Of a DNA stretch of 64,000 bases, positions 23,531-38,156 are shown piece after piece (position 1 is the first letter of the stretch; every line of letters begins with the position of its first letter). A program made the translations under genes and the position numbers. The DNA is taken from contig LBMP01000002.1 in assembly GCA_001184205.1 (NCBI GenBank), positions 514,726 through 578,725 on the forward strand, given 5' to 3'. A model generated the notes under the pieces. It was not told where the DNA came from. It was given only the letters and a program-made list of their open reading frames with translations, and ran no database searches. Origin of the DNA: Desulfocarbo indianensis (GTDB taxonomy: Bacteria > Desulfobacterota > Desulfarculia > Desulfarculales > Desulfarculaceae).

Positions 23531-25795
23531 ATGGCCACCAATCCGCAACTGGCCGAGCAGCGCAGCAAGGAGATGACCCGCCGCAAGCGGGAGCGCATCA
23601 TCATCGCCATACTGGTGGTGGTGGTGGCGGCGGTGACCTACCTGGAAACCCAGGTGGTGGACCTTTCCGGCGAGCTGCCCCTGGGCTCATCCCTCCTGGT
23701 CTTCGCCCTCATCAACTTGAACGCCCTGCTCCTGCTCCTGTTGATCTTCCTGGTGCTCAGGAATTTGTTGAAGCTCACCGTGGAGCGCCGGCGCGGCGTG
23801 CTGGGGGCCAGGCTTAGAACCAAGCTGGTGGTCACTTTCGTCATCCTTTCGCTGGCGCCCACCATCCTCTTGTTTTTCGCCGCCTTCCAGTTCGTGGGCA
23901 CCTCCATGGAGTATTGGTTCAGCGCCCAGGTGGAGCGTTCCCTTTTGGAGGCCATGGAGGTCAGCGAGGCCTATAACCGGCAGCTCGCCTCCAGCTCCGC
24001 GCGCTTTGCCGCCGAATTGGCCGGCGAAATGGAGGCCAAGGCCCTGGACATAAGCCGGCCCTCCAAGGGCCTGACCTCGTTCATCGAGGCCCGGCGGCAG
24101 CTTTTCGGCCTGGCCGCCGTGCGCGTATTCAACACCGATCTCACCGAGCCGGCGGTGGCCACCCAGAGCGGCACCCATATTAGCCATTTACAGACCTTTC
24201 CCCTGGACCTGGTCAAGCGGGTGCTGACCCAGGGAGAGCCGCTCAGCCATTTGCAGCCGGCGCCCACCGGCGATTTCGTGGCCGCGGTGCAGCCCTTGCT
24301 CGTGGGCCAGACCGTGCGCGGCGCGGTGGCGGTATTTCAACTGCTGCCCCCCGGAGCCATGGCCAAGATCGGCGGCATCAACAAGGGCCTGGAGGGCTAC
24401 CGAGAACTGAAGGCCGTGAAGCAGCCCATCAAGACCAATCAGTACATAACGCTTTCCATCGTGACCCTGCTCATCATCTTCGCGGCCACCTGGTTCGGCT
24501 TTCATCTGGCCAAGACCATCACCGTGCCCCTCATGGAGCTGGCCCAGGGCACCCAGCGCATCGCCGGCGGCGATTACGACTTTTTCATAGATTTGGAGGG
24601 CAGCGACGAAATCGGCACCCTGGTCAACGCCTTCAACCGCATGACCGCCGACCTCAGAACCTCCAAGGCCCGCCTGGACGAAGCCCAGGACGAGATGCGC
24701 CGCACCAACCTGGAGCTGGAGCAGCGGCGCAGCTACATGGAGATCGTGCTGAAAAGCGTGGCCGCCGGCGTGGTGGCGGTGGACGCCGAGGGCAGCGTGA
24801 CCACCTTCAACCCCTCGGCCGAGCGGCTGCTCATGGTGCAGGCCGAGTCGGTGTTGGGGCGGCATTGGCGGCAACTCCTGCCCCGCGACCAGATCGATCT
24901 GGTGGAGCGCCTGCTCATGGGCCTGGTGCCGGGCGGCCGCGGCACGGCGGGCAAGCAGGTTCGCCTCAGCGTGGGCGGCGAGTCCCTCACCCTCATGGTG
25001 CATCTGGGGTTTTTGCGCGACGACGCCGGCAAGAACCTGGGCATGGTGGTGGTGTTCGAGGACCTCACCGAATTGGAAAAGGCCCAGCGCATGGCCGCCT
25101 GGCGCGAGGTGGCCCGGCGCATCGCCCACGAGGTCAAGAATCCCCTGACCCCCATCAAGCTGAGCGCCCAGCGCCTCATCCGCCGCTACGGCGAGGCAAT
25201 GGGGCCGGACGAGACCGTGTTCCATGAATGCACCATCACCATCGTGCGGCAGGTGGAGGAGCTGCGGCGTCTGGTCAACGAGTTCTCCACCTTCGCCCGC
25301 CTGCCCTCGGTGCACCTGGCCCCCGGCGATTTGACCGCCATCGCCGAGGACGCCCTGGCCCTGTTCCGGGGGGCCCACCCTGATATCAGCTTCGAGCTGG
25401 AGCGCGACCAGGCGGTGCCGGTCTTCGACCTGGACCGGGAGCAGATGTCGCGGGTGATGATCAACCTGTTGGACAACGCGGTGGCGGCGGTGGAGGCGGC
25501 CGACCCGCCGCGCCAGGTGGTGGTGCGCCTCTCCTATGACGATATTCTGAAGATAGTGCGCCTGGAGGTGGAGGACACCGGGCCCGGCGTGCCGCCCGAA
25601 TACCGGCTGCGGCTTTTCGAGCCCTATTTCTCCACCAAAAAGGGCGGCACCGGCCTGGGCTTGAGCATCGTGAGCACCATCGTGGCCGATCACAACGGCT
25701 ACATCAGGGTGCAGGACAACCAGCCGGTGGGCACCCGCATAATCGTGGAGCTGCCCGCCCGGGGCGCCAAGACGGGCGGCGCGCAACCGGTTTGA
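23531..25795 (+). CDS. ntrY: NtrY-type membrane sensor histidine kinase
   Basis: 754 aa. Three N-terminal transmembrane helices (about residues 24-42, 55-77, 97-119) precede an extracytoplasmic loop. A fourth helix (about 305-325) leads to HAMP, then a PAS domain (LKSVAAGVVAVDAEGSVTTFNPSAE). A HisKA box follows, with H533 in RRIAHEVKNPLTPIKLSAQR, which is the hallmark of NtrY kinases. The HATPase has LLDNAVAAVEAA, DTGPGVPP and GGTGLGLSIV. It is 33 bp upstream of its response regulator. NtrYX pairs respond to nitrogen status, redox or envelope signals depending on the organism, and the stimulus here is unknown. Confidence 0.93.
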   Translation: MATNPQLAEQRSKEMTRRKRERIIIAILVVVVAAVTYLETQVVDLSGELPLGSSLLVFALINLNALLLLLLIFLVLRNLLKLTVERRRGVLGARLRTKLVVTFVILSLAPTILLFFAAFQFVGTSMEYWFSAQVERSLLEAMEVSEAYNRQLASSSARFAAELAGEMEAKALDISRPSKGLTSFIEARRQLFGLAAVRVFNTDLTEPAVATQSGTHISHLQTFPLDLVKRVLTQGEPLSHLQPAPTGDFVAAVQPLLVGQTVRGAVAVFQLLPPGAMAKIGGINKGLEGYRELKAVKQPIKTNQYITLSIVTLLIIFAATWFGFHLAKTITVPLMELAQGTQRIAGGDYDFFIDLEGSDEIGTLVNAFNRMTADLRTSKARLDEAQDEMRRTNLELEQRRSYMEIVLKSVAAGVVAVDAEGSVTTFNPSAERLLMVQAESVLGRHWRQLLPRDQIDLVERLLMGLVPGGRGTAGKQVRLSVGGESLTLMVHLGFLRDDAGKNLGMVVVFEDLTELEKAQRMAAWREVARRIAHEVKNPLTPIKLSAQRLIRRYGEAMGPDETVFHECTITIVRQVEELRRLVNEFSTFARLPSVHLAPGDLTAIAEDALALFRGAHPDISFELERDQAVPVFDLDREQMSRVMINLLDNAVAAVEAADPPRQVVVRLSYDDILKIVRLEVEDTGPGVPPEYRLRLFEPYFSTKKGGTGLGLSIVSTIVADHNGYIRVQDNQPVGTRIIVELPARGAKTGGAQPV

Positions 25796-25828
25796 CCTAC
25801 GGCGGCTTCGGCCGGCCAGGGAGAAGGC

Positions 25829-27199
25829 ATGAGCGGGCACGTGCTCATAGTGGACGATGAAAAGGCCATCTGCTCCTCTTTACAGGGCATCCTCACCGAC
25901 GAGGGCTACGAGGTCTCCTCGGCCCACGACGGCGAACAGGCCTTGAAGGCCTTGGACGAGGAAGACCCGGACCTGATGCTCTTGGACATCTGGATGCCCG
26001 GCCGGGACGGCATGGAAATCCTGGAGCTGGTCAAGAAGCGCAACCCGGCTCTACCGGTGATCATGATTTCCGGCCACGGCACCGTGGAGACCGCGGTCAA
26101 GGCCACCAAGCTGGGGGCTTACGATTTCATCGAAAAGCCCCTGGACATGGACAAGATTCTGCTTTCGGTGCGCAACGCCCTGGAGTTCAGCCGCATGGCC
26201 GAGGAGAACCTGCTCCTCAGGGCCAAGAGCGCGCCGCCCCGGCTTTCCGGCCAGAGCCCCCTGATCCGCTCCCTGCGCCAGGCCATCGACCGGGTGGGGC
26301 CCTCGGACAGCTGGGTGCTGATAACCGGCGAAAACGGCACCGGCAAGGAGCTGGTGGCCCACGCCATCCACCGCCACAGCCCCCGGGCCAAAGGCCCCCT
26401 GGTGGACGTGAACTGCGCGGCCATCCCCGAGGAACTCATCGAGAGCGAGCTGTTCGGCCATGAAAAAGGCGCCTTCACCGGCGCGGCGGGCCGCAAAAGG
26501 GGCAAGTTCGATCTGGCCAACGGCGGCACCCTGTTCCTGGACGAGATCGCCGACATGAGCCTCAAGACCCAGGCCAAGATTCTGCGCATCCTCCAGGAGC
26601 AACGCTTCGAAAGGGTGGGGGGCACCAAGACCATCGCCGTGAACGTGCGCGTCCTGGCCGCCACCAACAAGGACCTTACCACCGAAATAGAGGCGGGCCG
26701 CTTCCGGGAGGACTTGTATTACCGCTTGAACGTCATCCCCATTCATGTCCCGCCGCTCAGGGAGCGCAGCGAGGACATCCCCGAACTGTGCCGGGAGTTC
26801 ATGGCCGAGTTGGCCGGCAAGTTTCATCAGGAACCCAAGAGCATCTCCCCCGGCGCCTTGGAAAGGCTGAAGGCGCAGCCCTGGCCGGGCAACGTGCGCG
26901 AGTTGAAGAACCTCATGGAGCGGCTGTTCATCCTGTGCCCGGAGGCGGAGATAACCGCCCGCGACCTGGCGCCCTTTTTGGGCGAGGCCCCCCCGGCCGG
27001 GGAAGGCCTGCCCCAGGCCCTGGGGCGGGGCGATTTCAAGGAGGCGCGAGCCGAGTTCGAAAGGCTCTACCTGGAAGAGCAACTGGCCCGCCACGGCGGC
27101 AACATCAGCCAGACCGCCGAGGCGGTGGGCCTGGAGCGCTCCCACCTGCACAAGAAGCTAAAGTCCCTGGGCCTAAAAACCGAGCGCAACGGGGATTGA
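25829..27199 (+). CDS. ntrX: NtrX-type sigma-54 response regulator
   Basis: 456 aa. The receiver domain has D10/D11 acid residues in VDDEK and the phospho-acceptor D53 in LLDIWMPG. The AAA+ domain has Walker A GENGTGKELVAH and the GAFTGA loop (EKGAFTGAAGRKRGKFDLA), so it can activate sigma-54. The C-terminal Fis HTH is GGNISQTAEAVGLERSHLHKKLKSLGL. The SHLHKKLK helix is characteristic of NtrX rather than NtrC. Together with the upstream kinase it forms an NtrYX system. It converges on engB. Confidence 0.94.
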   Translation: MSGHVLIVDDEKAICSSLQGILTDEGYEVSSAHDGEQALKALDEEDPDLMLLDIWMPGRDGMEILELVKKRNPALPVIMISGHGTVETAVKATKLGAYDFIEKPLDMDKILLSVRNALEFSRMAEENLLLRAKSAPPRLSGQSPLIRSLRQAIDRVGPSDSWVLITGENGTGKELVAHAIHRHSPRAKGPLVDVNCAAIPEELIESELFGHEKGAFTGAAGRKRGKFDLANGGTLFLDEIADMSLKTQAKILRILQEQRFERVGGTKTIAVNVRVLAATNKDLTTEIEAGRFREDLYYRLNVIPIHVPPLRERSEDIPELCREFMAELAGKFHQEPKSISPGALERLKAQPWPGNVRELKNLMERLFILCPEAEITARDLAPFLGEAPPAGEGLPQALGRGDFKEARAEFERLYLEEQLARHGGNISQTAEAVGLERSHLHKKLKSLGLKTERNGD

Positions 27200-28022: not shown

Positions 28023-28652
28023 ATGCCCGGCAAGCTCAAATTGGCTTTTTGGGTTTTGATTGCCATCATGGCCTGTGCCTTGCCCGCGGCGGCCAGCGAG
28101 TTTTCGGCCGATGTCATGATAAGCGCCGGCGGTCAGCAGATGCCCAGCAAGCTTTATATAAAGGGCGAAATGCAGCGCATGGAGATGACCACGCCCGGCG
28201 GGCAGATGATCAACATCGTGGATTTCAAGACCGGCAACATGCTGACCCTGATGCCGGCCCAGAAAATGTATATCGAGCACAAGAGCCTGGACGACGCTTC
28301 CCTGCGGCAGATCCAGGAGTTCCGCGACGGCAAGCCCGGCAAGGCCAAAAAGATCGGCTCCGAGAAGGTGGCCGGCTACAAGACCGATGTGTACCAGTTG
28401 ACAGACCCCGAGTCGGGCCAGGCCAAGATTTGGTACGCGCCCAAGCTGAAATACCCGGTCAAGACCGAGGGCCAGGGCCCCATGGGCAAGCACTCCATGA
28501 CGCTCTCCAACATCAAGGAAGGCGGGGTGGCTGCCGGCGTGTTCAAGGTGCCCGCCGGTTATCAGAAGCTACAAATGCCCAAGGGCATGCCCCGCGGCGG
28601 CATGGGCGGCGGCATGGGCGGCGGCGGCGCGCGGGGAGGCGTGGGCCAATAG
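28023..28652 (+). CDS. Secreted DUF4412-like protein with LolA-type features
   Basis: 209 aa with a signal peptide (LAFWVLIAIMACALPAAASE). The mature part has the alternating strand pattern of lipoprotein-carrier folds (SADVMISAGGQQMPSKLYIKG, MLTLMPAQKMYIEH). It resembles DUF4412 proteins, whose function is unknown. The C-terminus is a Gly/Met/Arg-rich tail (MPRGGMGGGMGGGGARGG). GGAGGG precedes the ATG at 28023; an upstream in-frame start at 27999 lies before that site. A TATAAT at 27935-27940 and a loose sigma-54-like TGGCAT...GGGC at 27919-27933 are candidate promoter parts. A hairpin and a new promoter separate it from the ABC operon downstream. Confidence 0.7.
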   Translation: MPGKLKLAFWVLIAIMACALPAAASEFSADVMISAGGQQMPSKLYIKGEMQRMEMTTPGGQMINIVDFKTGNMLTLMPAQKMYIEHKSLDDASLRQIQEFRDGKPGKAKKIGSEKVAGYKTDVYQLTDPESGQAKIWYAPKLKYPVKTEGQGPMGKHSMTLSNIKEGGVAAGVFKVPAGYQKLQMPKGMPRGGMGGGMGGGGARGGVGQ

Positions 28653-28682
28653 CCGCGCCAAGGCGCTGAGTCTGAATCGCGT

Positions 28683-28716
28683 CAAAGCCGCCGCGGCAAT
28701 AAGCCCGGCGGCTTTG
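28683..28716 (+). terminator. Hairpin between the DUF4412-like gene and the ABC operon
   Basis: CAAAGCCGCC (28683-28692) pairs with GGCGGCTTTG (28707-28716) around a 14-nt loop. The T-run is short, so termination is probably partial. Confidence 0.5.
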
Positions 28717-28746
28717 GCATGCCGATGAAACCTGACGAGTTGGTGA

Positions 28747-28775
28747 TTGACTTGCCCGAGCGGCGATGCTATTTT
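28747..28775 (+). promoter_or_regulatory. Predicted promoter of the LolA-like/ABC operon
   Basis: TTGACT (28747-28752), 17-bp spacer, TATTTT (28770-28775), 60 bp before the first gene of the operon. Confidence 0.5.
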
Positions 28776-28835
28776 GGAATTGTTTGTTGGTTGGCCAGCC
28801 AATACTTCTGTCCGGTTTCACGCGGGGAGCGGCGA

Positions 28836-29597
28836 ATGAAAGCTAAAGCACTCAAGAGCCTGTGCCTGGTTTTGGTTTTTAGCGTGGCCTGCCCGGCGCT
28901 GGCCCTGGCCCAAGACGCGGAGAGCCTGGTGAAGGCCGCCTTTGACTACATGCGGGGCAAGGCTTCCGTCTCCACCGCCACCATGACCATCCACCGGCCG
29001 GATTGGCAGCGCAGCATGACCATCAGGGCCTGGACCCTGGGCCAAAGCGACAGCATTTTCTATATCGTCGAGCCGCCCAAGGACTCCGGCAACGGCACCC
29101 TGAAAAAGGGCGGGGAAATGTGGATGTACAACCCCAAGGTCAACCGGGTGATCAATCTGCCGCCCTCCATGATGTCCCAGGGCTGGATGGGCTCGGATTT
29201 CTCCAACAACGACCTGGCCAAGACCGACAGCCTGATCAAGGACTACGTGCACACCCTGGAGGGCAGCGAAACCATCGACGGCAAGAAAGTCTTCCACATT
29301 AAAAGCATGCCCAAGCCCCGCGCGCCGGTGGTATGGGGCATGCAGAAGCTGAAAATCCGCGAGGATCATATCTTCCTGCAAGAGGATTACTACGACGAGG
29401 ACTTGCAGCTGGTGAAGAGCTTGACCCTCCTGGACATCAAGCCCTTGGGCGGCAGGCTCTACCCAGCCAAGTGGCGCATGCAAAAGGCCGGCGTCAAGGA
29501 TGAATACACCGTGGTGGGCTACGAGAAGTTGGAATTCAAGGACAGCCTGCCGGCGGATTTGTTCACCCTGTCCAGCCTGCGCAATCCCAGGTTTTAG
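28836..29597 (+). CDS. LolA-like outer membrane lipoprotein-sorting protein
   Basis: 253 aa periplasmic protein with a signal peptide (LCLVLVFSVACPALALAQ) and no lipobox. The mature chain fits the LolA_like (outer membrane lipoprotein-sorting) family: TMTIHRPDWQRSMTIRAWTL, FYIVEPPKDSGNGTLKKGGE, MWMYNPKVNRVINLPPSMM and a late LQLVKSLTLLDIKPLGGRLYP. Such proteins have a half-barrel that holds acyl chains. GGGAG precedes the ATG at 28836. The two permease genes, the ATPase and the outer-membrane barrel follow, suggesting it shuttles a lipid or lipoprotein across the periplasm. It is not the housekeeping LolA by sequence appearance, but I cannot run that comparison. Confidence 0.85.
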   Translation: MKAKALKSLCLVLVFSVACPALALAQDAESLVKAAFDYMRGKASVSTATMTIHRPDWQRSMTIRAWTLGQSDSIFYIVEPPKDSGNGTLKKGGEMWMYNPKVNRVINLPPSMMSQGWMGSDFSNNDLAKTDSLIKDYVHTLEGSETIDGKKVFHIKSMPKPRAPVVWGMQKLKIREDHIFLQEDYYDEDLQLVKSLTLLDIKPLGGRLYPAKWRMQKAGVKDEYTVVGYEKLEFKDSLPADLFTLSSLRNPRF

Positions 29598-29703
29598 CGA
29601 CCGCCGGCCTGGCGGCGCGGGCGGCGGATCGAGGAGCCCCCCGCCAACCCGCGCGCCCTGGCCGGGGCCTGCCTGGCCGCTGATCATCGATTAGGAGCCC
29701 GTC

Positions 29704-30936
29704 GTGTCCATTGATCTCAGGATGGCTTGGCGCAACCTCTGGCGCAATCCCCGCCGCACCCTGCTCACCATGTCGGCCATCGCCTTTGCCTGCGTGCTTC
29801 TGGTGTTCATGCTTTCCTGGCAGTTCGGGTCCTATGAAACCATGATCAACACCGCGGTCAAGGTGCAGACCGGTCATCTGCACGTGGAGGCCGCCGACTA
29901 CCAGGACCGCCAGGACATGCGCCTGGTCATCAAGGACCCCCAGGCCGTGACCAAGATGGTGCAGGCCGCGCCCGGAGTCGAGGCCTACACCGTCAGGGCC
30001 AATTCCTTCGCCCTGGTCTCCAGCCAAGAGCGCACCTACGGCATCCTGGTGGTGGGCATCGACCCGGCCAGGGAGGCCAAGGTTTCCACCCTGAAAAGCA
30101 TCGTGCGCCAGGGCTCCTTTCTGGAGCCCGGCGACCACGAGGGGGCCCTGGTGGGCCGTCTCCTGGCCCAAAACCTGCAAGTGAAGCTGGGCGACGAACT
30201 GACCGTGCTGGGCCAGGGGCGCGACGGCTCCATCGCCGCCCTGGTGCTAAAGGTGCGCGGCATCTATTCCTCCGGCATGGACGATTTCGACCGATCCTCC
30301 ATCCAGATGGGCCTCCAGGCCTTCCAGGACGCCTTCACCATGGAAGGCGCGGCGCACCAGGTGGTGGCCATCTGCCAGAGCTTGGAGGAGGTGGCCGGGG
30401 CCAAGGCCTATATGGCCGCCCATCTGCCGCCGCAGAAAGACCCGGGCCTGACCGTGCTGGATTGGAAACAACTCATGCCGGGGCTGTTGCAGGGCATCGA
30501 GATGGACTTGGTTTCCGGCATCATCTTCTACATAATCCTGCTGGTGGTGGTCACCTTCTCCATCCTGAACACCTTTCTCATGTCCATCCTGGAGCGCACC
30601 CACGAGTTCGGGGTGCTCATGGCCATGGGGGCCAAGCCGGGCCGCCTGGGCCGCCTGGTGGTCATGGAGTCTCTGGCCATGAACTTGTTGGGCGTGGGCG
30701 CGGGCATGATCATGGGAGCCTTGATCACCTGGTATTTCCAGGTCCAGGGCATCGACCTGGGCGCCCAGGAACTGATGGCCCAGTACGGCATCGTGGGCCG
30801 CATTTACCCCCGGCTCTCCTGGCTGAGCCTGTTGAGCGGGCCGGCGGTGGTTTTCGTCATGACGCTTCTGGCCGCGCTGTATCCCACCCGCCGCCTTTGG
30901 AAGCTGAGGCCGGTGGAGGCCATGAACTATGCCTGA
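29704..30936 (+). CDS. ABC permease, FtsX/LolCE type (first subunit)
   Basis: 410 aa with the MacB/LolC-E plan: TM1 after WRNLWRNPRRTLLT (about residues 18-40), a large periplasmic domain (about 45-265), then three helices in the C-terminal FtsX domain (FYIILLVVVTFSILNTFLMS, a second near 320 and a third near 380). It ends with YPTRRLWKLRPVEAMNY. It starts with GTG at 29704. The mechanotransmission class of exporters pulls substrates from the outer leaflet of the inner membrane rather than importing. A distinct second permease follows after 30 bp, implying a heterodimer like LolCE. Confidence 0.9.
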   Translation: MSIDLRMAWRNLWRNPRRTLLTMSAIAFACVLLVFMLSWQFGSYETMINTAVKVQTGHLHVEAADYQDRQDMRLVIKDPQAVTKMVQAAPGVEAYTVRANSFALVSSQERTYGILVVGIDPAREAKVSTLKSIVRQGSFLEPGDHEGALVGRLLAQNLQVKLGDELTVLGQGRDGSIAALVLKVRGIYSSGMDDFDRSSIQMGLQAFQDAFTMEGAAHQVVAICQSLEEVAGAKAYMAAHLPPQKDPGLTVLDWKQLMPGLLQGIEMDLVSGIIFYIILLVVVTFSILNTFLMSILERTHEFGVLMAMGAKPGRLGRLVVMESLAMNLLGVGAGMIMGALITWYFQVQGIDLGAQELMAQYGIVGRIYPRLSWLSLLSGPAVVFVMTLLAALYPTRRLWKLRPVEAMNYA

Positions 30937-30966
30937 TCGCTTGCGGGCCGTGAAAGAGGTGAGCAC

Positions 30967-32187
30967 GTGTTCCTGAGCCTGGCTTGGCGCAATATCTGGC
31001 GCAATCCCCGGCGCACCGCCGTGATCCTGGCCGCGGTGGTGATCGGGGTGTGGTGCATGGTGTTCTTGGGGGCGCTTATGCGGGGCATGATGGTGGAGAT
31101 GGTGGACAACGGCATCGCCACCTTGACCGGCCACCTCCAGATTCATCGCAAGGGCTACCAGTCCGATCCGGTGATCGAAAACAGCATGCGCGATCCCGGC
31201 CCGGCCAGCAAGGCCCTGCAAGACTCCCTGCCTGCCGGCTCCCATTGGACGGCCAGGGTGCGGGTCAACGCGGTGGCCAACAACGCCCGCCACAACGCGG
31301 GCGTGACTCTGGTGGGCATCGATCCCGCGTGCGAGGCCAAGGTATCGTTCATCGGGCATGCGGTGGCCCAGGGCCAATACCTGAAACCGGACGACGACTA
31401 CGGCATCGTGGTGGGCCAGGCGCTCCTGGAAAAGTTCGAGACCAAGCTGGGGCACAAGCTCATCCTCATGTCCCAGGACACCGGCAGGCAGATCGCCTCG
31501 CGGGCCTTCCGCATCCGGGGCGTTTTCCACGCCCAGCAGCGCGCCACCGAAAAGCAGTTCGTTTTCGTGACCAAGGCCGCCGCCCAAGACATGCTCAAAT
31601 TGGGCAGCGGCATAAGCGAGCTTTCGGCGCTCTTGCCGGAAGCAGCCTCGCCGCAAAAGGCGGCCGATCGCCTGCGCGGCGAATTGCCCGGCGCTTACGA
31701 GGTTCTCACCTGGCCCCAACTGCTGCCCCTCATCAAGCTCTATTTGGGCATGATGGACAGCTTCGTGGTGATTTGGTACGTGGTGGTTTTCGTGGCCATG
31801 GGCTTCGGCATAGTCAACACCACCCTCATGGCCGTGTTCGAGCGCATAAGAGAATACGGCCTGCTGAAATCCCTGGGCCTCAAACCCTGGGGCATCATCA
31901 AGGGGGTGATGGCCGAGTCCTTTTTCCTCCTTTTGATCGGCGCGGCCTTGGGCAACGCCCTGGGCCTGGCCACGGTGTGGGCCCTGTCCTATCACGGCAT
32001 AGACCTGAGCGCCCTTGCCCAGGGCGCGGAGTTTTTCGGCATGGGCCGGGTGATCTACCCTGAGGCGCATATCAAAGATATTCTCACCGCCAATCTGGTG
32101 GTGTTCATTTTGGGCCTGGTGGTGTGCTTGTATCCGGCGGTGAAGGCCGCCCGTTTCACGCCGGTTGAGGCATTGGCCCACACCTAG
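30967..32187 (+). CDS. ABC permease, FtsX/LolCE type (second subunit)
   Basis: 406 aa, GTG start at 30967. It shares the opening LAWRNIWRNPRRTAVILAAV and the overall topology with its neighbour: one N-terminal helix, periplasmic domain, then three helices (IWYVVVFVAMGFGIVNTTLM, FFLLLIGAALGNALGLATVW, a last one before YPAVKAARFTPVEAL). Sequence between the ends has clearly diverged, so the pair is an old duplication and probably a heterodimer. The ATPase starts 22 bp after the stop. Confidence 0.9.
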   Translation: MFLSLAWRNIWRNPRRTAVILAAVVIGVWCMVFLGALMRGMMVEMVDNGIATLTGHLQIHRKGYQSDPVIENSMRDPGPASKALQDSLPAGSHWTARVRVNAVANNARHNAGVTLVGIDPACEAKVSFIGHAVAQGQYLKPDDDYGIVVGQALLEKFETKLGHKLILMSQDTGRQIASRAFRIRGVFHAQQRATEKQFVFVTKAAAQDMLKLGSGISELSALLPEAASPQKAADRLRGELPGAYEVLTWPQLLPLIKLYLGMMDSFVVIWYVVVFVAMGFGIVNTTLMAVFERIREYGLLKSLGLKPWGIIKGVMAESFFLLLIGAALGNALGLATVWALSYHGIDLSALAQGAEFFGMGRVIYPEAHIKDILTANLVVFILGLVVCLYPAVKAARFTPVEALAHT

Positions 32188-32209
32188 CCATATGGGCCGA
32201 GGAGTTTTT

Positions 32210-32896
32210 ATGCCTATCGTCCAATGCGATCATGTGAACAAGACCTATCGCCAGGGCAATATCCAGGTGCGGGCCCTGCGGGAGGTGAGCCTGGAGGTGG
32301 ACAAGGGCGGCTTTGTCGCGCTTTCCGGCCCCTCCGGCTCGGGCAAGACCACGCTTCTCAACATCATCGGCGGCTTGGATTTGGCGGATTCCGGAGCGGT
32401 GGTGGTGGACGGCGAGTCGCTGGAGCAGATGAGCCAGACCCAACTGGCCGAGATGCGCCTGCAAAAAGTCGGCTTCGTGTTTCAGGCCTACAACCTGGTG
32501 CCCGTGCTTTCGGCCCTGGAAAACGTGGAGTTCGTCATGCTCTTGCAGGGCGTGCCCACCGACGAGCGCCGCAAGCGGGCGCGGGCCATCCTGGACGCGG
32601 TGGGTTTGGAAGGCAGGCACGACCGGCGGCCCCGCGAGCTTTCCGGCGGCCAGCAGCAGCGGGTGGCCGTGGCCAGGGCCATCGTGTCCAATCCGGCCAT
32701 CGTCCTGGCCGACGAGCCCACCGCCAACCTGGACTCCAAGACCGGCCAGGGCCTTTTGGAAATGATGCGCCAAATGAACCAGGAGCGGGGCGTCACCTTC
32801 ATCTTTTCCACCCACGATCAAATGGTCATGGATTTCGCCCGCCGCTTGGTGATCATCCGGGACGGCCAGGTGGTGGACGACCGGGTCAAGGGTTAA
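32210..32896 (+). CDS. ABC ATPase, LolD/MacB type
   Basis: 228 aa nucleotide-binding subunit. Walker A is GPSGSGKTTLLN, the Q-loop is FVFQAYNLVPVLSALENV, the signature is LSGGQQQRVAVARAI, Walker B is IVLADEPTANLDS and the switch His is in IFSTHD. This matches the LolD/MacB/FtsE subgroup that works with FtsX-type permeases. The ATG at 32210 has GAGGAG six bases before it; an upstream ATG in the same frame (32165) would overlap the permease gene. The outer-membrane barrel gene follows after 3 bp. Confidence 0.95.
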   Translation: MPIVQCDHVNKTYRQGNIQVRALREVSLEVDKGGFVALSGPSGSGKTTLLNIIGGLDLADSGAVVVDGESLEQMSQTQLAEMRLQKVGFVFQAYNLVPVLSALENVEFVMLLQGVPTDERRKRARAILDAVGLEGRHDRRPRELSGGQQQRVAVARAIVSNPAIVLADEPTANLDSKTGQGLLEMMRQMNQERGVTFIFSTHDQMVMDFARRLVIIRDGQVVDDRVKG

Positions 32897-32899
32897 GCC

Positions 32900-34207
32900 A
32901 TGCCGCGCCTTATCGCCCGGCTCGCCTGCCTTTTGGCGGCGCTGCCGTTTTTCCTGGCCGGGGCCGCGCCGGCCGGCGAGCCCCAGCCCTGGTGGCAAAG
33001 CCTGGAGACCGAGTGGGGCGGCCACCTTCGCCTGCAGGCCAGGGCCTACCAGGCCCAGCGCCAGTCCTATTATCAGCCGGTGGGCACCGAGCGCTATTAC
33101 GACGGCCTGGGCGATTTCCGGCTCAAGGCCAAGACGCGCCTGGGGGATTGGGGATATTTCGAGGCCCATTACGAGGCGGCCTTTGACGGCGGCGACACGG
33201 TGCGCAAGAACAACGAGCTGGCGGGGCGCTATCCGGGCCTGTTCGGCGGCTATCTGCGGCAGGGGCCGGTGGAGGACGGCCGCCGCTTCATGGACCTTTC
33301 CCGCACCGTCTCCAGCGACAATTCCTATTATCTCTCCCACCGCCTGGACCGCCTGCTCCTGGCCTGGCAGCCGGATTGGGGCGCGGTGAAGCTGGGCCGC
33401 CAGGCCTTGACCTGGGGCAACGGGCTCCTGTTCAACCCCATGGATTTGTTCAATCCCTTCGCGCCCACCGATTTCATCCGCGATTACAAGGTGGGCGACG
33501 ACATGGCCGTCTTGCAGGCGTCCCTGGGCGAGGTAGGCAACCTGCAAGTCCTGGCCGTGCCCCGCCGCGACCCGGCCACCCGCGAGGTGGAGGCGGACAA
33601 GTCCTCGGCCGCGGCCAAGCTGCATGTTTTCTACGGGATCACCGAATTCGATTTCATGCTGGCCCGCCATTACGGCGACAACGTGGCGGGCCTGGGCGGC
33701 ACCGGCGAATTGGGCCAGGCCGCCTGGCGCGCCGATGCCACCTGGACCGATCTGCGGGACGGCGGCGGCTATCTGTCCCTGATGGCCAACCTGGATTATT
33801 CCTGGGTGCTCTGGGACAAGAACTGGTACGGCTGGCTGGAGCTCTATTTCAACGGCCTGGGCCGCGACGACATGAGCGAGGCCCTGGGCGACGAGCTGAT
33901 CCTCGACCGGGTGGCGCGAGGCGAGCTTTTTTCCCTGGGCCGCGCCTATTTGGACGCCGAGCTGAAGGTGGAGCTGCACCCCCTGTTCAACGCCCTGTGC
34001 ACGGCGATTCTGAATCTGTACGACGCCTCGGGCGTGCTGCAACCCAGGGGCGTGTGGGATGTCACCCAAAGCAGCCAGGTCATCTTCGGGGCCAACCTCT
34101 CCTTCGGCGCGCCGGACACCGAGTACGGCGGTTTCCCCCTGCCGGGGCTGCCCTGGCAGAGCGCCTCGCCGGACACGGCCTATATCCTCTACACCTGGTA
34201 TTTCTAG
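32900..34207 (+). CDS. Outer-membrane beta-barrel protein of the LolA-like/ABC operon
   Basis: 435 aa with a signal peptide (ARLACLLAALPFFLAGAAPA) and a mature part of alternating amphipathic strands rich in Tyr, Trp and Gly. It ends YILYTWYF, the terminal phenylalanine typical of Bam substrates. A distinctive stretch GRQALTWGNGLLFNPMDLFN near residue 168 recalls the GRQ-W-NP-D segment of DUF1302-type barrels. That link is from memory and tentative. With only 3 bp after the ATPase stop it is surely part of the operon. It may be the outer-membrane acceptor or exit channel for whatever the LolA-like protein carries. Confidence 0.75.
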   Translation: MPRLIARLACLLAALPFFLAGAAPAGEPQPWWQSLETEWGGHLRLQARAYQAQRQSYYQPVGTERYYDGLGDFRLKAKTRLGDWGYFEAHYEAAFDGGDTVRKNNELAGRYPGLFGGYLRQGPVEDGRRFMDLSRTVSSDNSYYLSHRLDRLLLAWQPDWGAVKLGRQALTWGNGLLFNPMDLFNPFAPTDFIRDYKVGDDMAVLQASLGEVGNLQVLAVPRRDPATREVEADKSSAAAKLHVFYGITEFDFMLARHYGDNVAGLGGTGELGQAAWRADATWTDLRDGGGYLSLMANLDYSWVLWDKNWYGWLELYFNGLGRDDMSEALGDELILDRVARGELFSLGRAYLDAELKVELHPLFNALCTAILNLYDASGVLQPRGVWDVTQSSQVIFGANLSFGAPDTEYGGFPLPGLPWQSASPDTAYILYTWYF

Positions 34208-36612: not shown

Positions 36613-38025
36613 TTACTTCTTGGCGGCCGGCTTGAAAAGCTGGGGCGGCTTGGTGGTGTCGCCGGTGGCGCCCGGGTAGTCCGAGGTCACGAACACCTTT
36701 TCGCCCTTGGCCAAGTGCTGGTCGGCCTCGTGCATGAAGTTCACGAAGCGCTTCTTGCACTCGTAGAAGCCGTGCCACCAGGCGTAGTCCGGGGCCATCA
36801 TGGCCGAGCCCATGCGGGCCCGGCGGCCTTCGTGGTGCCACAGCTCGTAGAACTCGGTCCACAGGGGGGCCTTGAAGAAGGCGTCCTTGGCCAGGAGCCC
36901 CTTGGCATAAAGCTCGTTCAGCTTGGCCAGGGCCGGCTTGTAATAGGTGTCGTTATACAGATTGACCGCGCCGTCCATCTGGGCGTAGTGGGAGAGCACC
37001 CATTGCTTGCCGTGGCACTGCATGCAGACCTGCTGCATCTTCTGACGCTCCTCCTGCCAGTTGGTGGGCGCGGGGAAGGCCTTGAAGTCGCTGGGCCGCA
37101 CGGTCAAGGGCGCTTGCAGCTCCCAGGAAAGGCGCTCGGTCACGTCGTGGGTGGTGAGCACCTGGCCGGAGCCGCTCATGTGGCAGGCGGCGCAGGCCGG
37201 GGCGCGGTAATCCACCCCCGGCGTCCAGGTGCCGGGCGCGGCGGTCCAGTTCCACTTCTCGCCTTCGGAGCGGGTGATGGCCCCGTGCTTGGATTCGTTC
37301 CAGATCTCAAGCTGGGGATGGTCGGGCCCCAAATGGCACTGGCCGCAGGTGTCGGGCTTCCTGGCCTCGGCCACGCTGAAGCGGTGCCGGGTGTGACAGG
37401 CCGCGCAGGAACCCTTGGAATCGTCCAGGTTCACCCGGCCCACGCCCACGTTGGGCCAGGTCAGCGGGTCCAGTTGGCCCTTGTCGTCTATCTTCAGCAC
37501 CGTGCCGTGGCAATGAAAGCAGCCGTTGGACCGTTCGAAATCGCTGTTGAGCCCGAAATTGAGCCAGGGATCTATCTTCCAGATGATCTCCATGGTGTTG
37601 GCGTGCTTGCTCTTGGCGTATTGCTTGGCCTCGTCCGGGTGGCAGCGCGAACAGTCCTTGGGCGTCACCACCGCGGAAATGGCGGCCCGGTACTGGCTGG
37701 TCCCCCATTTATTGTCCGAGCGCTGGTATTGCTTGAAGTGCTCCTGGGCGACGTCCTTGTCGGTCTCCTCGGCCTGGTGGCAATCCAGACAGGTGATGTT
37801 GGCGCTGGCGTGCCGGCTGTGGGCCCAATCGGCGAAAATGCCGGGGCTCTCCGTCTTGTGGCACTCGATACAGGCCTGGGCCTGCGGGCTCATGCCGCGC
37901 ACCACGCGGAATTCCTTCATCTTTGGCTGGTTCGGCGCCGTTTGCTCGGCGGCCCAGGCCGCGCCCGCCAGCAGCCAAAGCGCGGCCAGGATGGCCGGCA
38001 GGGCCAGGGTGCAAAGCTTTTTCAT
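36613..38025 (-). CDS. Octaheme c-type cytochrome, hydroxylamine oxidoreductase family
   Basis: 470 aa periplasmic cytochrome with a signal peptide (LALPAILAALWLLAGAAWA) and eight CxxCH haem sites: CIECH, CLDCH, CSRCH, CFHCH, CAACH, CGQCH, CAACH and CMQCH. Number, spacing and the HAO-typical C-terminal aromatic stretch (MAPDYAWWHGFYE) place it in the HAO/octaheme nitrite-hydroxylamine group. The start at 38025 is the ATG that directly opens the signal peptide. With a NapC/NrfH-type quinol oxidase 131 bp upstream it probably reduces nitrite, hydroxylamine or a similar N (or S) oxyanion. Oxidative ammonia metabolism would be unexpected here. Whether the P460 cross-linking tyrosine is present needs an alignment. 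Confidence 0.88.
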   Translation of the reverse strand: MKKLCTLALPAILAALWLLAGAAWAAEQTAPNQPKMKEFRVVRGMSPQAQACIECHKTESPGIFADWAHSRHASANITCLDCHQAEETDKDVAQEHFKQYQRSDNKWGTSQYRAAISAVVTPKDCSRCHPDEAKQYAKSKHANTMEIIWKIDPWLNFGLNSDFERSNGCFHCHGTVLKIDDKGQLDPLTWPNVGVGRVNLDDSKGSCAACHTRHRFSVAEARKPDTCGQCHLGPDHPQLEIWNESKHGAITRSEGEKWNWTAAPGTWTPGVDYRAPACAACHMSGSGQVLTTHDVTERLSWELQAPLTVRPSDFKAFPAPTNWQEERQKMQQVCMQCHGKQWVLSHYAQMDGAVNLYNDTYYKPALAKLNELYAKGLLAKDAFFKAPLWTEFYELWHHEGRRARMGSAMMAPDYAWWHGFYECKKRFVNFMHEADQHLAKGEKVFVTSDYPGATGDTTKPPQLFKPAAKK

Positions 38026-38156
38026 CCCCCGCTCCTCCTTTTGAGATTTATCTCGCCGCCGCGGGCCTCCCCAGACCCCATGACGGGCGGCGTAAAACCT
38101 TGGCATCTCCTCAAGCGGCCCGGTGAGCGGCGTGACGCCGGCTCCTCATGGCCGCC

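Follow-up and report, generated by a model that had tools for sequence, protein, structure and literature searches.

The LolCDE and MacB transporters, the closest relatives of the pump considered here, move cargo away from the cytoplasm. In the LolCDE-LolA (or LolFD-LolA) pathway, which transports triacylated lipoproteins, FtsX-type permeases and a LolD-type ATPase are paired with a LolA-fold carrier (PF03548), whereas MacB, which likewise has MacB_PCD and FtsX domains and a LolD-like ATPase, is a single fused permease-ATPase found with the MacA adaptor and TolC (MacAB-TolC), and has neither a LolA-fold carrier nor a barrel of the type described below. The Hook, a part of LolC/LolF that recruits LolA, has been called essential for this recruitment (PMC10865981). 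Additional LolA-fold carriers include LolA2/LolB2 from the flexirubin locus and LolA3 of Bacteroidota, for which pathways outside general lipoprotein sorting have been proposed; in the relevant passages of these reports, LolA2/LolB2 are placed in the pigment locus, LolA3 is given no function, and no ABC pump with a barrel is described (PMC11885536, PMC13103446).

Other related systems are driven by RND or MMPL pumps. AmeABCD of Castellaniella defragrans protects against monoterpenes, and deletion of ameABCD lowered monoterpene tolerance; the same study treats it as one lineage within the conserved HAE3 cassettes (PMC6394551). These cassettes combine an inner-membrane pump (RND/HAE3), a LolA-superfamily periplasmic protein (DUF1329 in AmeABCD) and a DUF1302 barrel, and AmeABCD has an extra YCF48-like protein (COG4447). 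In the set PP_0765/0766/2018/2019, growth on Tween 20 depends on PP_0765 (DUF1302) and PP_0766 (DUF1329); these two have been suggested to work as a transport system together with a transporter and a periplasmic protein (PMC10866462). In P. gingivalis and P. intermedia, low iron or hemin strongly induces operons that encode TetR, an MMPL protein and an outer membrane lipoprotein-sorting protein (PMC10470040, PMC10434189). Little is known about how the outer membrane receives lipids other than LPS and lipoproteins.

Here we describe a gene cassette of Desulfocarbo indianensis (GCA_001184205.1, contig LBMP01000002.1, 514,726-578,725 of the forward strand; this 64,000-nt stretch is the window, and positions below are counted within it). 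The cassette probably serves to move a hydrophobic or lipid-like cargo across the envelope through a dedicated ABC-driven line, which would make it an ATP-driven sibling of the lines that consist of an MMPL/RND pump, a LolA_like/DUF1329 carrier and a DUF1302 barrel. Six genes lie where the original prediction placed them, and their reading frames and families agree with its description. The features of the region are as follows.

28023..28652, + strand: DUF4412 secreted protein (PF14371) with a predicted LolA/LolB-like half-barrel; upstream neighbour, outside the conserved cassette.
28747..28775, + strand: possible sigma-70-like promoter of the cassette (weak; 9/12 positions match, with TG ahead of the second hexamer; may reflect chance).
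28836..29597, + strand: LolA_like periplasmic carrier (PF17131) with signal peptide, 253 aa, assigned by Pfam and similarity to solved LolA-superfamily proteins.
29704..30936, + strand: FtsX/MacB_PCD permease 1 (LolC/E/F-like, without Hook), GTG start, assigned by profiles; Hook segment of 26 residues versus 31 in LolF.
30967..32187, + strand: FtsX/MacB_PCD permease 2, also without Hook, GTG start, assigned by profiles and Hook-segment alignment.
32210..32896, + strand: LolD/MacB-type ABC ATPase, 228 aa, assigned by profiles; Walker A, signature and Walker B intact.
32900..34207, + strand: outer-membrane 18-strand barrel, a distant DUF1302 relative with signal peptide and C-terminal F, assigned by model and profile comparison.

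The conserved unit comprises the last five genes (28836-34207), which form a tight run on the + strand in the order carrier, permease 1, permease 2, ATPase and barrel, with intergenic gaps of 106, 30, 22 and 3 bases. The region is flanked by engB and an aminotransferase gene, both on the - strand. Further upstream (23531-27199, + strand) lie two genes that by eye resemble NtrY/NtrX, one for a membrane histidine kinase and the other for a response regulator of the sigma-54 type.

The pump falls within the Type VII ABC (MacB/LolCDE) superfamily, having FtsX and MacB_PCD permease domains and a LolD-like ATPase with the motifs GPSGSGKTT (Walker A), LSGGQ (signature) and ILADEPT (Walker B). All of its subunits score below their Lol equivalog cut-offs (ATPase, TIGR02211, 234.3 bits versus 307.75; permeases, TIGR02212, 135.0 and 100.5 bits versus 362.45). 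The Hook segment is 26 residues long in 93/93 sampled cassette permeases, compared with 31 in 18/18 neighbouring LolF proteins, and the five missing residues fall exactly at the LolA-docking Hook; alignment of E. coli LolE with LolF has no such five-residue gap. Since the Hook is absent, the carrier must dock otherwise, provided that the permeases are its docking partner in the first place. Unlike LolCDE-LolA, the cassette thus lacks the Hook, has a dedicated barrel and coexists with a canonical set. That set includes a LolF above the curated cut-off (394 bits) on contig C279, in the housekeeping context lysS-lolF-lolD-bamA-skp-lpxD (neighbour names read from their sequences), and a canonical LolA (PF03548) on contig C1, and LolC/E/F above the cut-off is present in 16/18 genomes holding a relative of the cassette barrel. 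A housekeeping Lol identity of the cassette is ruled out by these separate lolF, lolD and lolA genes, which also remove the main ground on which the proposal of a separate line might have failed, namely a genome with no other LolCDE.

A second Lol pathway for special lipoproteins, in which a subset extracted by the pump would travel on the carrier to the outer membrane, with the barrel aiding surface exposure, would be in keeping with the nearest solved or curated relatives of the permeases and ATPase (LolF/LolE/LolD) and with the LolA superfamily of the carrier. We consider it unlikely, given the loss of the Hook in all 93 permeases, their placement in a clade of their own apart from LolF (support 100, in a quick tree), and the carrier and barrel kin tied to RND hydrophobe pumps; moreover, no conserved lipoprotein gene adjoins the cassette in the relatives examined. 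A search of the D. indianensis genome found no recognisable LolB, which also fits a second Lol pathway; LolB is divergent, so its absence here is possible but unproven. The contrast drawn in the original prediction, that a housekeeping Lol system has LolB as acceptor, accordingly fails in this genome.

The carrier matches PF17131 (3e-46, 157.7 bits versus a gathering score of 30) and, in contrast to the canonical Lol carrier, only this family. Its sequence is similar to the solved LolA-superfamily proteins 4z48, 9tp6 (LolA3 of P. gingivalis), 3buu and 3bk5. All four PF17131 genes of the D. indianensis genome adjoin a pump and a barrel. Three of these cassettes, on C312 (L014), C290 (L015) and C1 (L016), have an MMPL/RND pump in addition to the LolA_like/DUF1329 carrier and outer-membrane barrel, while the cassette described here has a two-permease ABC/FtsX pump in the place of the RND/HAE3 pump of AmeABCD. 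The C1 cassette resembles AmeABCD further in having a YCF48-like protein. The carrier is therefore kin to those of the RND lines. As judged from sequence, the nearest relatives of carrier and barrel together appear to be the MMPL/RND lines with LolA_like/DUF1329 and DUF1302 proteins and not Lol, the kinship of the barrel being less even. The proposal of a dedicated Lol-like line spanning inner to outer membrane is thus partly supported: the separateness and the barrel have stood, but Lol as the nearest kin of carrier and barrel has not.

The last protein of the cassette is confirmed as a predicted outer-membrane barrel, with a signal peptide, the C-terminal residues YTWYF and a structure model with 18 strands (counted from the listed strands; pLDDT 92.6). 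The barrel itself has no match to PF06980 (DUF1302) in Pfam, which is matched by 8/47 members of its family; the more distant barrels have no Pfam match, and sequence searches of solved structures, whether started from the barrel or from its profile, gave no relevant match. The family profile aligns with the MMPL-linked barrel on C312 of the same genome, which is DUF1302 by Pfam (hhalign 96%, 267 columns), and both contain a GR...G.G..NP.DL.NP region, the stretch best conserved within the family. The alignment with the C1 barrel is weak (hhalign 56%), and similarity to the C290 barrel is confined to one short stretch. By profile comparison, kinship of the barrel with the RND lines is thus well supported for one line (C312) and partial for the others.

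In fold, the modelled barrel comes closest to the OprD/Occ channels (Z about 24), followed by AlgE (Z about 23), a resemblance that says little about function because the barrel fold is shared. Charged residues kept in the family (R74, R151, R167, D201 and E314), together with this resemblance, would be in keeping with a cargo or head group of polar nature, which is a point against the reading we favour. The likeness to OprD/Occ uptake channels and the need for PP_0765/PP_0766 in growth on Tween 20 could also be read in terms of import, in which a hydrophobic nutrient would enter through the barrel and travel with the carrier to the inner membrane, retrograde transport being driven by the ABC proteins. 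Such an importer seems improbable, as the nearest pump relatives, LolCDE and MacB, work in the outward direction, and no catabolic genes are conserved next to the cassette in the relatives examined.

The same gene order was found in other genomes, across several phyla, for the five-gene unit. A scan for relatives of permease 1 gave 34 loci in Desulfobacterota and relatives (some records labelled Deltaproteobacteria fall under Myxococcota in tree placement), an Alphaproteobacterium, an Ignavibacterium and three Elusimicrobia. About 20 loci uncut by contig ends keep the order carrier, permease 1, permease 2, ATPase and barrel, one with an insertion. In the Ignavibacteria phylum, a permease relative is present at E 1e-20 or better in 75/247 sampled genomes (about 57 of the 75 at E 1e-50 or better, as counted), mostly as tandem pairs, and 12/13 of the paired-permease stretches fetched contain the five-gene set. 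This order is not due to chance, because it recurs in dozens of genomes. Variants also occur: the Elusimicrobia cassettes (L080, L081 and L082) have a single permease instead of two, which parallels LolF versus LolC/LolE, and the order ATPase, single permease, carrier and barrel is found at loci L192 and L195, in G384 and in G161, the latter a member of the Desulfobacterota. Barrel relatives, many of them distant, are present in 42/297 Desulfobacterota genomes, and within the family their occurrence is patchy.

Among the relatives examined, no gene that might indicate the cargo recurs next to the cassette; the recurring neighbours are regulators, and the genes directly upstream often encode TetR (six confirmed), Crp-like (two) or MarR-like proteins (two, weak matches). 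Their frequency suggests that an inducible line fits better than constant lipoprotein sorting. These regulators, the effect of the ameABCD deletion and the MacB-type kinship of the permeases would also suit an inducible tripartite efflux system that expels toxic hydrophobic compounds, in which, as has been proposed for AmeABCD, the LolA_like protein would serve as adaptor and the barrel would form the exit duct. This reading overlaps with the one we favour and differs in having a foreign compound instead of an own lipid, and a continuous conduit instead of a shuttle; it is unlikely, since the cassette includes neither TolC nor a MacA-type adaptor, a barrel of 18 strands differs from a TolC-type duct, and the D. 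indianensis copy has no adjoining regulator, which also counts against the reading we favour. As for the suggestion that the set has its own promoter at 28747, a consensus-like site is indeed present (TTGACT, a 17-base spacer and TATTTT) but weakly supported, with 4 such sites in 6.6 kb versus 1.4 expected.

In the trans-envelope line that we favour, the two permeases and the ATPase would act together as a LolCDE/MacB-like pump and extract an amphiphile from the inner membrane. The LolA_like carrier would cover the hydrophobic part of the cargo through the periplasm, and would then hand it over to the barrel in the outer membrane, where the cargo may be inserted or released. A hydrophobic or lipid cargo is favoured because the RND siblings (AmeABCD, PP_0765/0766/2018/2019) act on hydrophobic compounds. 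The five genes would thereby provide a complete route of inner-membrane motor, carrier and outer-membrane barrel, and the kinship with the RND-driven cassettes suggests one carrier-barrel module run by two kinds of motor. More tentatively, and with somewhat more doubt than belief, the cassettes could represent an unnamed multi-phylum trans-envelope lipid system with an interchangeable motor (ABC or MMPL/RND) and a shared carrier and barrel, the barrel being a dedicated acceptor that places the lipid in or on the outer membrane, a part without counterpart in the Lol pathway. We found no published description of this ABC-driven cassette in open-licence full texts, which is weak evidence of absence. 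The labels 'lipoprotein-releasing' and 'outer membrane lipoprotein-sorting' in gene annotations call for caution, since genes that bear them may be unrelated to lipoproteins.

The DUF4412 gene upstream (PF14371, 5e-13) had been proposed to encode a second carrier of the same fold. The fold agrees: a LolA/LolB-like half-barrel is predicted (pLDDT 85.8), with LolA as the first Foldseek match and LolA, VioE and ependymin folds at Z 11-14 in structural comparison. Its membership in the set does not hold, and as a second carrier of the set it was rejected: none of the recurring cassettes examined carries DUF4412, genomes with both DUF4412 and barrel relatives have them on different contigs (e.g. 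G010, G048 and G160), and G089 has DUF4412 without the barrel. A second DUF4412 gene is present elsewhere in the D. indianensis genome (C290:259144-259545). Downstream of the region, the window contains a gene (36613-38106, - strand) whose secreted product has numerous CxxCH haem-binding motifs and is probably a multihaem cytochrome.
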